Virus record (IMG/VR): IMGVR_UViG_3300024518_000300
Location: 1 to 32,271 of that record
Source: a virus
DNA: 32,271 nucleotides
Direction: 5' to 3' (one strand)
A program made the position numbers and the translations under genes. This document shows, piece by piece, positions 3,559 through 6,379 of this stretch. How positions within the stretch are numbered: the stretch's first letter is position 1; each line of letters starts with the position of its first letter. The notes under the pieces are model-generated. The model was not told where the DNA came from, did not search any database, and saw nothing but the letters and a program-made list of their open reading frames with translations.

Positions 3559-3576
3559 CGAACCATTCCTGATTCG
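3559..3576. promoter_or_regulatory. 18-bp dyad, candidate operator
   Basis: CGAACCA (3559-3565) and TGATTCG (3570-3576) form an inverted repeat with one mismatch and a 4-bp spacer. It lies immediately downstream of the predicted start of the leftward promoter (near 3578), where a bound repressor would block transcription. The binding protein is unknown; the HTH protein at 4978 is a candidate. Confidence 0.4.
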
Positions 3577-3584
3577 ATAAATAC

Positions 3585-3614
3585 ATTATAGAGTGTATAT
3601 TTATAATGTGTCAA
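3585..3614 (-). promoter_or_regulatory. Main leftward early promoter (copy 3), near-consensus sigma70 type
   Basis: On the minus strand a perfect TTGACA (3609-3614) is 18 bp from a perfect TATAAT (3585-3590). It faces the ArdC-N-like gene and would start the whole leftward operon. The -10 is one arm of a perfect inverted repeat CATTATA/TATAATG (3584-3590, 3602-3608). Confidence 0.7.
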
Positions 3615-3644
3615 GCATTTTTTACACTTTATTTTCAAAATAGT

Positions 3645-3674
3645 TTAGCAATTCTTTTTTAAAGAGTCTATAAT
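3645..3674 (+). promoter_or_regulatory. Candidate rightward promoter for replication genes
   Basis: TTAGCA (3645-3650) lies 18 bp from a perfect TATAAT (3669-3674). The predicted start near 3681 coincides with the first of two leader hairpins. The -35 matches the consensus at four of six positions, so it may be weaker than the leftward promoter or need activation. Confidence 0.45.
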
Positions 3675-3679
3675 TGGTC

Positions 3680-3725
3680 TAACCTCCTTTAGGTTATTCA
3701 GGGTGGGGAGGTAATTACCCCACCC
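3680..3725 (+). promoter_or_regulatory. Tandem hairpins in the leader of the initiator gene
   Basis: TAACCT/AGGTTA (3680-3685, 3691-3696) is followed 4 nt later by GGGTGGGG (3701-3708)/CCCCACCC (3718-3725), an 8-bp perfect stem. They occupy the start of the rightward leader, 46 nt before the ATG at 3772. No T-run follows, so mRNA stabilisation or regulation is more likely than termination. The second resembles the hairpin after the capsid gene. Confidence 0.5.
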
Positions 3726-3771: not shown

Positions 3772-4461
3772 ATGAAAAACAAAATGACTAGGATTAGTGC
3801 CTCCTATACACAGGTATCTAATAGAATAATTAACGATAGGTCTTTATCATTAAAGGCAAAAGGGCTTTACGCATTTATGTACAGCAAGCCCGATGACTGG
3901 AACTTTACGATAAGGTCAATGGCATCACAACTTAAAGAAGGTGTCGATGGTATATCTTCCACATTAAAAGAATTACGAGAGAGTGGATGGGTTGACTATC
4001 GAAAGGCCACGAATGGGTCAGGTGAATATTTTATTGGATATATTGACGAGGAACACCCTACTGCTACACCAAATACGGCTATTCCGAACAAGCCAAATAC
4101 GGATAATCCCAACAAGGGAAAAGCCGTACGCATTAGTAATAAAGATTTAAGTAGTAATAAAGATAATATATATATAGAGAAATTTTCTCCGAATGATACT
4201 ACTTTGAAAGTCATTAATGAGAAGTTTCCTAACATAACTGAAAAGCAATTAGTAACATTGGTAGATACATTCAAGGACAAGGCAAAGAATAGACAGAAGC
4301 CTTTGAAAGACTTAGATTCGGGAATGAGATACTATGTACGAGAAGGATGGGTTAAAGTGCCAACTGGCAAGGTAACGTCATTCAACGCAATAAAGCAACA
4401 GGTTCAGGCAAAGCAAAACCAACATCTGTCAATGCAAGAACTTAAACAACTAGGGGGTTAG
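3772..4461 (+). CDS. Replication initiator with N-terminal winged helix (lambda O-like role)
   Basis: 229 residues from the ATG at 3772, which has GAGGAAAA upstream; an in-frame TTG at 3742 is less likely. The N-terminus (about 1-85) has the phage replication wHTH pattern: LSLKAKGLYAFMYSKPDDW, then TIRSMASQLKEGVDGISSTL, then LRESGWVDYRK. A low-complexity Pro/Asn/Thr linker (PNTAIPNKPNTDNPNK) follows, encoded by two 24-bp DNA repeats. The C-terminal part (about 145-205) contains TLVDTFKDKAKNRQ and YYVREGWVKVP, reminiscent of DnaT/primosome-type domains. By analogy with lambda O it would bind iterons within its own gene and recruit the helicase loader encoded next. It is the first gene of the rightward operon. 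Confidence 0.7.
   Translation: MKNKMTRISASYTQVSNRIINDRSLSLKAKGLYAFMYSKPDDWNFTIRSMASQLKEGVDGISSTLKELRESGWVDYRKATNGSGEYFIGYIDEEHPTATPNTAIPNKPNTDNPNKGKAVRISNKDLSSNKDNIYIEKFSPNDTTLKVINEKFPNITEKQLVTLVDTFKDKAKNRQKPLKDLDSGMRYYVREGWVKVPTGKVTSFNAIKQQVQAKQNQHLSMQELKQLGG
4069..4116 (+). repeat. Two tandem 24-bp iterons
   Basis: 4069-4092 and 4093-4116 are direct, head-to-tail repeats matching at 21 of 24 positions; each begins CCAAATACGG and ends AACAAG. The first contains the dyad CGG-N5-CCG. They encode the octapeptide repeat PNTAIPNK/PNTDNPNK within the initiator gene. Confidence 0.75.
4069..4186. other. Candidate replication origin inside the initiator gene
   Basis: The two 24-bp iterons are followed, within about 20 bp, by a strongly AT-rich stretch (about 4131-4186). 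This contains a 13-bp direct repeat TAGTAATAAAGAT (4134-4146 and 4152-4164) and an alternating AT run. Iterons plus an AT-rich unwinding region inside the initiator gene is the architecture of lambda ori. The pattern is visible; origin function is inferred. Confidence 0.6.
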
Positions 4462-4462
4462 T

Positions 4463-4936
4463 ATGTATCAAGAAATAAAAGAGGTAGACAGAATAGAAAT
4501 AGCAACAGAGATATTCGCTCGTATGGAAATGGAATATAAATATGCTACGAACAAAGAGGTAGATAAAGTAGAGGCAATTAAATTTCTTGCAGAACAATTA
4601 AGTAGTATTAGCGATAATGCATGTCTTGGATGGTATGAGGCACTTAATAGAATTTCAGAACTAGGACGTGAACATCCACCAACTGTACCTGAGATAATGG
4701 CAGAGATGCGTAGAATAGAAATTGCGATGCAACCAAAACTGCCAACTTTAGAATATACGAGAAGTAATTATGCTACCCAATGGGATAGTGCAAAAACAAC
4801 TAGAGAGAAGTTGGCATTTCTGTCAACCGTTTTTTCTAAAAATGAAACACCACCATCGACCAAGTACCACATTCAGAAATGGATGGTTGCCGATGGATGG
4901 GATAGCGTGAGAATAAAAAACACTTTGTATGTATAA
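4463..4936 (+). CDS. Candidate helicase loader (lambda P-like position)
   Basis: 157 residues, starting 1 nt after the initiator stop with a GGGGG ribosome site at the end of that gene. The protein is helical, with EIATEIFARMEMEYKYATN at the N-terminus and LGREHPPTVPEIMAEMRRIE in the middle. The PPT-x-E segment is reminiscent of the PPT-x-EF segment in lambda P-type proteins. The C-terminus ends WMVADGWDSVRIKNTLYV. Its place directly after a wHTH initiator carrying iterons suggests it delivers the host DnaB helicase to the origin. The family match is weak; the role rests mainly on position. Confidence 0.5.
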   Translation: MYQEIKEVDRIEIATEIFARMEMEYKYATNKEVDKVEAIKFLAEQLSSISDNACLGWYEALNRISELGREHPPTVPEIMAEMRRIEIAMQPKLPTLEYTRSNYATQWDSAKTTREKLAFLSTVFSKNETPPSTKYHIQKWMVADGWDSVRIKNTLYV

Positions 4937-4971
4937 ATACCTTTACGGCTATTTTAGCGTTTAGGTATAAT
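4937..4971 (+). promoter_or_regulatory. Dyad operator overlapping the promoter of the HTH gene
   Basis: ATACCTTTACG (4937-4947) is mirrored by CGTTTAGGTAT (4958-4968), matching 9 of 11 positions, and the inner GCTA-TTT-TAGC (4948-4958) extends the dyad. It starts 1 bp after the upstream stop codon. It overlaps a promoter with TTTACG (4942-4947) 18 bp from TATAAT (4966-4971). Transcription would start at about 4978, the A of the start codon. A repressor bound here would shut the promoter; autoregulation by the next gene is the simplest reading. Confidence 0.6.
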
Positions 4972-4977
4972 TATATT

Positions 4978-5205
4978 ATGCAAAAAACAATATATTACAA
5001 CGACATTTCTCACGAAATTAATAGGCTAGGGCTGTCGAAGGCTGAGGTAGCACGCTACTTTGGTATCACACGACAGGCCTTACACTACAGGATTAAACAA
5101 GACCAACCTTACATTCATTGGATGATTTATGGCCTTTCTAATTATCTTGGATATGTTCAGACTAGGTCTAAATGGGCAGAGGTAGCACGCACAGGGTCTA
5201 AATGA
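4978..5205 (+). CDS. Small HTH regulator, probably leaderless (Cro-like)
   Basis: 75 residues. A helix-turn-helix is visible at about 18-38: LSKAEVARYFGITRQALHYR, with the typical A-x-x-x-G-I turn. The sequence around residues 40-58 (PYIHWMIYGLSNYLGYV) may form a dimer helix. No Shine-Dalgarno precedes the ATG, and the candidate -10 ends 7 bp upstream, so the mRNA would begin at the start codon, as with lambda cI from PRM. A 32-bp dyad covers the promoter. The C-terminal codons contain short direct repeats (GAGGTAGCACGC and GGTCTAAATG). It overlaps the next gene (ATGA). It is likely a transcription regulator of the early or rightward genes. Confidence 0.7.
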   Translation: MQKTIYYNDISHEINRLGLSKAEVARYFGITRQALHYRIKQDQPYIHWMIYGLSNYLGYVQTRSKWAEVARTGSK

Positions 5206-5549
5206 ATCAAATAGAACACGAGGTACAAAAGTCTATTAAAGAGTACCTAGACGCACGAGGTTTCTGTTGGTGGGCAGTTCCTAATGGTGGACAGCGCAAT
5301 GTAAAGGTTGCGTCAAAATTACAGGCAGAAGGGGTTAAAAAAGGAGTGCCGGATATAACCCTGATACATGAAGGTATGTTTTATGCCTTGGAAGTAAAAA
5401 AGCCCAAGGGGGCAACCCCAAAAGGTTACTTATCAAAAGCCCAAAAAGCCATGATAAAAAAAATAGAAACTAATGGTGGCCAAGTCAAGGTGGTGTATTC
5501 GGTGGCAGATGTAATAGAGGCATTAATTGATTGGGAGATTAGGACTTGA
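5202..5549 (+). CDS. VRR-NUC domain nuclease
   Basis: 115 residues, a complete single-domain VRR-NUC protein. The hallmarks are in order: EHEVQKSIKEYL (E6 region), VPNGGQRN (27-33), the VRR loop EGVKKGVPDITLI with D51, ALEVKKPKG with E64 and K66, and LSKAQKAMIKKIETNGG with Q81. This PD-(D/E)XK family includes FAN1 and many phage stand-alone enzymes, which cut structured DNA such as Holliday junctions or flaps. It probably resolves recombination or replication intermediates. The start overlaps the regulator stop (ATGA), and its own stop overlaps the next start. Confidence 0.9.
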   Translation: MNQIEHEVQKSIKEYLDARGFCWWAVPNGGQRNVKVASKLQAEGVKKGVPDITLIHEGMFYALEVKKPKGATPKGYLSKAQKAMIKKIETNGGQVKVVYSVADVIEALIDWEIRT

Positions 5550-5836
5550 GTAAGATAACCAAGAGTGCTAAAGGACAAGCCTGTACTGTGCGTCTCCAAG
5601 GATGTAATGGTGGGGTTGAGAATGAGACTGTCGTGTTCGCTCATCTCAATGGTGGTGGAATGGCCTCTAAGAAGGCGGATATATTCGGGGCTTATGCTTG
5701 CCATAATTGTCATGATATTGTGGATGGTAGAAAGTTGACAGACCTAGATAGACAGCACATCCTTCTCACTCACTTAGTGGCAATGCAAAGAACACAACAA
5801 ATCTTAATAGATAAGGAGTTAATAAGATGGGAGTAA
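5546..5836 (+). CDS. DUF1364 protein (zinc/HNH-like nuclease candidate)
   Basis: 96 residues beginning at TTG (5546), which overlaps the previous stop as TTGA with GGGAG 8 nt upstream. The sequence KSAKGQACTVRLQGCNGG, then VVFAHLNGGGMASKKAD, then YACHNCHDIVDGRK, follows the DUF1364 pattern found beside nin-region genes in lambdoid phages. The Cys/His set (C13, C20, H33, C52, C55, H56) suggests one zinc site and an HNH-like fold. Nuclease activity is inferred from the family, not shown. It sits between VRR-NUC and NinB-like genes, a recombination/repair block. Confidence 0.75.
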   Translation: MSKITKSAKGQACTVRLQGCNGGVENETVVFAHLNGGGMASKKADIFGAYACHNCHDIVDGRKLTDLDRQHILLTHLVAMQRTQQILIDKELIRWE

Positions 5837-5970
5837 GTTTAGTAAGAAAATTGTTCGGTGGCTATAGAAAGTATGTGGCAATACCTTGTGAAAGATTAAA
5901 AATATGTGCATTACTGCATAAGATAAATAAAAAGGTAAAAAAACTCTATGAGCGGGCAAAGAATAGTTGA
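5827..5970 (+). CDS. Small basic hypothetical protein (47 aa)
   Basis: The ATG at 5827 lies inside the end of the DUF1364 gene, behind TAAGGAG (5813-5819), a good ribosome site with close spacing. The product starts MGVSLVRKLFGGYRKYVAIP and ends KKVKKLYERAKNS. It is strongly basic and bridges what would otherwise be a 110-nt gap, overlapping the NinB-like gene by 23 nt. No family recognised; a nucleic-acid-binding role would be a guess. Confidence 0.5.
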   Translation: MGVSLVRKLFGGYRKYVAIPCERLKICALLHKINKKVKKLYERAKNS

Positions 5971-6379
5971 AAAACATAAGCCAAAAGAACAAGTTTTTAA
6001 ATCGTTAGTGCAAGATTTTTTCCATGAAAATCCTGACGTAGAAAAGGCAGTAGTAAGCATTAAAAAGCCTGTTGCAACTCGCTCAGAGGCTCAGAATCGT
6101 CTCTACTGGATGTGGATAGATGTGGCATCTCATAACTTAGGGTACAATAAGGACGAAATCGCTGTAATATTTAGAGACCTATTCTTGGGTTACAAGACCT
6201 TCACTACAAAGAAGGGTAAAGAGATAACTGAGTTGCGGTCATCAACTGAATTAAAGGTGGCAGAATTTAAGGACTATTTAGACCAAATAGATATACTTAT
6301 GGCAGAGCAGAATATAACATTACCAAGGTCTGAAGATTTCAAGGAATTGTATGATAAAGCGATGGGATTAAAAGGATGA
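5948..6379 (+). CDS. NinB-like recombination protein
   Basis: 143 residues. RSEAQNRLYWMWIDVASHN (about 46-64) carries the R-S-x-x-Q-N-x-L-Y/M-W pattern typical of NinB and related phage recombination proteins. DEIAVIFRDLFLGYKTFTTK and ELRSSTELKVAEFKDYLDQI follow, ending with a short helix. NinB-family (Orf-like) proteins bind single-stranded DNA or recombination intermediates and assist RecBCD-independent recombination. Position among VRR-NUC and DUF1364 supports a nin-region role. The weak N-terminus (KHKPKEQVFKSLVQ) has no recognised domain. It overlaps the next micro-ORF by ATGA. Confidence 0.6.
   Translation: MSGQRIVEKHKPKEQVFKSLVQDFFHENPDVEKAVVSIKKPVATRSEAQNRLYWMWIDVASHNLGYNKDEIAVIFRDLFLGYKTFTTKKGKEITELRSSTELKVAEFKDYLDQIDILMAEQNITLPRSEDFKELYDKAMGLKG

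Follow-up and report, generated by a model that had tools for sequence, protein, structure and literature searches.

The window, by which we mean the whole 32,271-base virus record analyzed here (IMG/VR IMGVR_UViG_3300024518_000300), belongs to a lambdoid-like phage of marine source. Its minus strand carries genes for SSB, a Sak annealing protein, and other products, and its plus strand carries an O-like initiator, a 157-aa gene, a helix-turn-helix (HTH) gene, VRR-NUC, YbcO, NinB, terminase, head, and tail genes. The O-like replication initiation gene (3772-4461, plus strand; HTH_36; PHROG 4707) is followed by the 157-aa gene (4463-4936, plus strand), which is of unknown function and no known family and lies directly upstream of the gene that concerns us here, encoding a 75-aa HTH regulator (4978-5205, plus strand) with a start codon that is also its predicted transcript start. 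A VRR-NUC nuclease gene (5202-5549, plus strand) overlaps the regulator stop by 4 nt, a YbcO-type HNH nuclease gene follows (5546-5836, plus strand), and both are presumably co-transcribed with the regulator. The next gene (5948-6379, plus strand) encodes a NinB/Orf-like recombination mediator, an assignment with two bases, one of them weak. Protein searches covering 2.9 million viral contigs returned two close homologues of the HTH protein, in phages L002 (92% identity) and L003 (69-78% identity by alignment), which keep the gene order of the window and, together with it, are referred to from here on as clade 1. Close homologues of the 157-aa gene were found in L002 and L003 only. Named phages showed DNA similarity to the window (65-67% identity) over the terminase gene only, and a tblastn search of annotated phages found no homologue of the HTH protein.

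The original prediction had remarked that no integrase was in view, and this holds more widely, as 10 records yielded neither a tyrosine integrase, a serine resolvase, nor an S24 repressor. End repeats of 15 bp or more are absent from the window record, which may be incomplete. The first 127 bases of a 39,232-bp relative (G001, the record of L022), which also encodes a DNA methylase, recur near its end; G001 is therefore probably complete, and here, too, integrase, resolvase, and S24 repressor were looked for and not found.

Two further elements of the window were noted to the left of the O-like gene. A TATAAT (3669-3674) is directly followed by two perfect hairpins, TAACCTcctttAGGTTA (3680-3696) and GGGTGGGGaggtaattaCCCCACCC (3701-3725), which are identical in L003 and could be a put-like antitermination element or a stabilizing leader of the rightward operon. 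An exact 23-bp repeat, TGTCAAGCATTTTTTACACTTTA, occurs upstream of two minus-strand genes (2896-2918 and 3609-3631), has a related form in L003, and looks like a repeated leftward promoter or control element of another regulator.

The dyad, the promoter, and the start codon

The proposed operator is a 32-bp dyad, ATACCTTTACG-N10-CGTTTAGGTAT (4937-4968), with arms at 4937-4947 and 4958-4968 that match at 9 of 11 positions across a 10-bp gap and that, as had been proposed, begin directly after the TAA of the upstream gene (4934-4936). The inner GCTA (4948-4951) and TAGC (4955-4958) described in the original prediction are there, but a shift of one base places them on a different axis from the outer arms. 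The best promoter match within 4400-5400 consists of TTTACG (4942-4947), an 18-bp spacer, and TATAAT (4966-4971), all on the plus strand, and agrees with the consensus at 10 of 12 positions. We note that the -35 hexamer lies inside the left arm, as expected (it reads TTGACG in L002), but that the dyad reaches no further than the first three bases (TAT) of the -10, which is identical in L002 and L003, and does not cover most of it. Between the end of the -10 and the ATG (4978) lie 6 nt, correcting an earlier value of 7, and a Shine-Dalgarno core (GGAG, AGGA, or GAGG) is absent from the 20 nt upstream of the ATG, in agreement with the original prediction, in a window where most genes have recognizable Shine-Dalgarno pairing.

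Because the gap from TATAAT to ATG is 6, 6, and 7 nt in the three clade-1 phages, a leaderless message is predicted for this clade, probably starting at the ATG or one base before it, and the position of the promoter thus lends support to the claim of leaderlessness. Transcription entering from the upstream genes can, in addition, give a message with a leader. In the more distant clades 2 and 3 (described below), the predicted leaders are 21-23 nt long, have no Shine-Dalgarno sequence, and are U-rich in clade 2. This suggests that translation without a Shine-Dalgarno sequence is general in the gene family and that leaderlessness is a clade-1 trait.

Taken by itself, the dyad has no statistical significance in this AT-rich genome, because dyads with arms of at least 9/11 and gaps of 4-20 bp are common in the window (64, compared with 92-106 in shuffled sequences; four pairs have the exact geometry of the dyad at 4937-4968), and the case for an operator therefore rests on the relatives. 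No further intergenic copy of the dyad site was found in the window. Half-site matches at 396, 8215, 18306, and 22806 fall in coding sequence, score about as well as shuffled sequences or slightly above them, and were discarded, as was an additional half-site suggested at 3559-3576, which does not match the arms and lies in a region without conservation in L003.

Conservation in close relatives and palindromes in distant ones

The original prediction had staked itself on the dyad being kept in close relatives, and it is present in both, as ATACCTTGACG-N10-CGACAAGGTAT in L002 (908-939) and ATACCTTTACA-N10-CGAATAGGTAT in L003 (3995-4026), with position and length as in the window. The pattern ATACCTTKAC...CG...AGGTATAAT is common to L002 and L003 at the equivalent place and with equal length, and in both the right arm is followed by the AAT that completes TATAAT. 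Across the three phages, 22 of 35 bp are identical, including ATACC, CG, and AGG, none of which is required by the promoter hexamers, compared with 9 of 34 fourfold sites unchanged in the neighboring upstream gene. For independent and neutral sites, the chance of keeping all 12 outer-arm positions would be ~1e-7, and that of keeping the 8 positions outside the hexamers ~2e-5; the sites are neither quite independent nor quite neutral, and both values serve as a guide only. A scan of the 2.9 million viral contigs with the operator pattern matched L002 and L003 only. Conservation in these two phages is thus what makes the dyad significant, for a clade of three members and with part of the conservation coming from the promoter hexamers. 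In L002 and L003, an extra AGGTAT half-site (AGGTAT-N9-ATACCT), absent in the window, lies 15 bp before the dyad, within the final codons of the 157-aa gene.

A profile search raised the number of distant contigs, with roughly 40% identity, to ~37, among them clades 2 and 3, in which the HTH gene leads a rightward operon and is followed by VRR-NUC, YbcO, NinB, and terminase genes. In clade 2, a 14-bp palindrome (TACTAATATTGATA or close variants) overlaps the TATAAT of the HTH gene, and in clade 3, TATCCATAATGATA lies on the corresponding -10. The palindrome found in most of the distant phages, TAYYAATATTRRTA, is shorter than the window dyad and of different sequence. These distant palindromes sit on the -10 in the register of the window dyad (GNTA/TATAAT), and the clade-1 and clade-2 sites have only a TAYC/GRTA half in common. 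Nearly all longer clade-2 contigs have a second copy 640-750 bp away, at a divergent leftward promoter; in several, a third copy lies 1.0-2.3 kb further left, just upstream of another leftward gene. In total, the clade-2 palindrome was found at 38 sites in 15 contigs, compared with 0.1 expected from shuffles. The exact 18-bp leftward site occurs in 24 viral contigs, of which 19 encode the HTH protein; the other five have neither a homologue nor synteny in the available DNA, and their sites look like chance matches in coding sequence. The palindromes on the promoter of the gene itself in distant homologues tie the protein to these sites and point to repression as its natural mode.

The 75-aa protein and known regulators

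The window protein exceeded the cut-off of no Pfam family (HTH_8 was best with 20.4 bits against a cut-off of 22, and HTH_3 scored 15.5 against 23), no relative in the 10 records reached the HTH_3 cut-off, and PHROGs gave weak repressor matches only. The AlphaFold model (pLDDT 85.7) has four helices. Foldseek found no significant match for it (E of 0.85 or more), a search of viral predicted structures gave weak matches only, and a sequence search of the PDB returned nothing below E 0.04 and no Aca protein among the matches. Structure comparison, in which XRE-like chains dominate with Z of at most 5.9, ranked Aca1, Aca2, HigA2, and C proteins, which are all small regulators of a similar type, at the top with weak scores (Z 4.7-5.9). 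This resemblance of the modeled fold is best taken as a lead and not as a test of membership. A defence-family scan gave a weak match to mad1 (E 0.001) over 23 HTH residues. The only apparent homologue in cellular genomes (L048, from a Pseudomonas MAG) proved to be a spurious match within a larger, unrelated reading frame. In the alignment of homologues, IYYxSI and IYGLSNYL are nearly invariant, whereas the recognition helix reads ITRQALHYRI in the window clade and LSLSGFTSRI or CSISGLTHRI in the distant clades; recognition helices and operator sequences both differ between clades. We also note that GAGGTAGCACGC occurs twice inside the HTH gene, at 5044-5055 (encoding KAEVAR) and 5179-5190 (encoding WAEVAR), the second copy being in the variable C-terminal tail, and that a small internal duplication is possible.

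The original prediction had likened the gene to lambda cI expressed from PRM. The likeness to lambda CI is that of a leaderless message (that of lambda cI is leaderless; PMC9031893) from a promoter with operators, and it does not reach further, as the window protein has 75 aa and no S24 domain, the peptidase S24 domain is absent from the 10 records, and the proposed operator extends over the promoter core. With neither a CI-type repressor nor an integrase or resolvase found, the part of the prediction that concerned PRM and lysogeny is unsupported. Lambda Cro offers a different parallel, in that the clade-2 and clade-3 genes come first in a rightward operon and clade 2 has the same operator at divergent early promoters; the two features together are seen in clade 2 but not in the window, where the gene comes after the O-like and 157-aa genes, and neither a CI partner nor family-level similarity to Cro was found.

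Aca1 and Aca2, which gave the best, although weak, fold match (Z 5.9, 12% identity), are likewise small phage HTH proteins with an inverted repeat in the promoter of their own operon, and Aca inverted repeats lie within core promoters (PMC9410906), a trait present in the window clade and its relatives. They differ in that acr genes precede aca genes, whereas the window gene heads or sits in a recombination and nuclease operon with no known acr gene identified; the HTH gene is first in its operon in clades 2 and 3, and in clade 1 the 157-aa gene precedes it. C proteins are also small HTH regulators of their own promoter with paired operator sites, and the model matched the folds of C.EcoT38I and C.Kpn2I. 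C.AhdI has a leaderless transcript and places two dimers on one promoter (PMC5333194); in mechanism, it and the Aca proteins are the nearest precedents. No restriction enzyme or methyltransferase lies next to the window regulator, where the neighbors are O-like, unknown, VRR-NUC, YbcO, and NinB genes. C proteins also activate; the site in the window overlaps both hexamers.

Probable autoregulation, its alternatives, and a predicted RNA in the relatives

We consider it likely, judging from sequence comparison, that the 75-aa protein is a small dimeric HTH self-repressor acting on its own promoter, comparable to Aca, C, and Cro proteins and, in clade 1, made from a leaderless message. The proposed autoregulation is supported by the conservation of the dyad in close relatives and by the palindrome of their own that distant homologues have on the -10 of the same gene; as the window holds a single site, autoregulation there depends on that one site. 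The overlap of the candidate operator with both hexamers favors repression over PRM-like activation. A dimer bound to the dyad would block RNA polymerase. Early in infection the promoter would fire, the weakly translated protein would accumulate and then shut its own promoter, and the regulator and the downstream nuclease and recombination genes would be held at a low level. In clade 1, each 11-bp arm (ATACCTNNNCG) may be contacted by one dimer, giving two dimers per 32-bp dyad. This reading, drawn from the spacing and from the C-protein precedent, is weak, because the clade-1 and clade-2 sites share only the TAYC/GRTA half, and it is weakest for L003. In clade 2, a single 14-bp palindrome on the -10 would suffice, and its copies at one or two leftward promoters could bring about a Cro-like shut-off of early transcription.

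It is unlikely that the dyad is instead the operator of another regulator, either a phage repressor encoded outside the window or a host factor, with the HTH gene as one of its targets. Although the window record may be incomplete and other DNA-binding proteins (HTH_39) occur in L003 and G001, HTH_39 is present in only 2 of the 10 records, for which reason it was rejected as a general binder; the 10 records, one of them with terminal repeats, hold no S24 repressor and no HTH_3 protein above the cut-off; and the operator sequence changes between clades alongside the recognition helix of the 75-aa protein. We regard it as very improbable that the dyad arises incidentally from promoter hexamers in AT-rich sequence, with no regulator involved. 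That dyads of its grade are not enriched in the window would fit such an origin, but ATACC, CG, and AGG are kept outside the hexamers in three diverged phages, and distant homologues have palindromes at the equivalent promoter.

The dyad could also act as an RNA hairpin in the upstream transcript, for termination, processing, or control of translation, and both its start right after a stop codon and its predicted folding in the window (-10.1 kcal/mol) and L002 (-8.9 kcal/mol) are compatible with this. However, the arms do not covary but keep an invariant sequence, L003 has lost most of the fold (-3.2 kcal/mol), no T-run follows the dyad, and the site is absent from the terminator scan. As the arms keep their sequence and not their pairing, a DNA operator appears to be the better reading, and we find an RNA element hardly credible here. 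Overall, we conclude that the 75-aa protein most likely shuts off its own gene, as a phage self-repressor of a new though unremarkable kind.

A separate and more interesting lead is a large structured RNA next to the gene in the distant relatives. Immediately ahead of the HTH promoter in clades 2 and 3 lies a conserved non-coding segment of 550-600 nt, closed by TTGGTTTAG...TAAACCAA (4780-5375 in L009, 4360-4920 in L045, and the same place in the other clade-2 and clade-3 loci). Folding of the aligned region gave a consensus with 30 predicted pairs that each show a two-sided change at least once. An Rfam scan of the segment gave nothing at the gathering score and chance matches at a relaxed score, nhmmer found no counterpart in the window, and the 29 viral contigs that contain a core pattern of it had all been found through the HTH protein already. 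The segment takes up the position of the clade-1 O-like gene, and no such gene was found in G001, G005, L009, or L011. Integrase-less mycobacteriophages have RNA-based origins (PMC7157519), which suggests a possible, testable role for it. The clade-2 protein could be a master switch working without integrase or CI, repressing divergent early promoters that flank an RNA-based origin in place of the O-like initiator, and the clade-1 regulator, with the initiator present, could now be a leaderless self-repressor inside the operon; we hold this broader scheme to be decidedly doubtful.

The relatives point to an early region under control of the regulator, together with a large RNA that is so far undescribed. 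The locus itself supplies a compact protein and operator that can be tested as a pair, drawn from uncultured marine phages in which recognition helix and operator alike vary naturally. It also adds to lambda cI and C.AhdI a phage example in which self-repression may accompany a leaderless message, which is relevant to the question of why weak leaderless translation is used by regulators.
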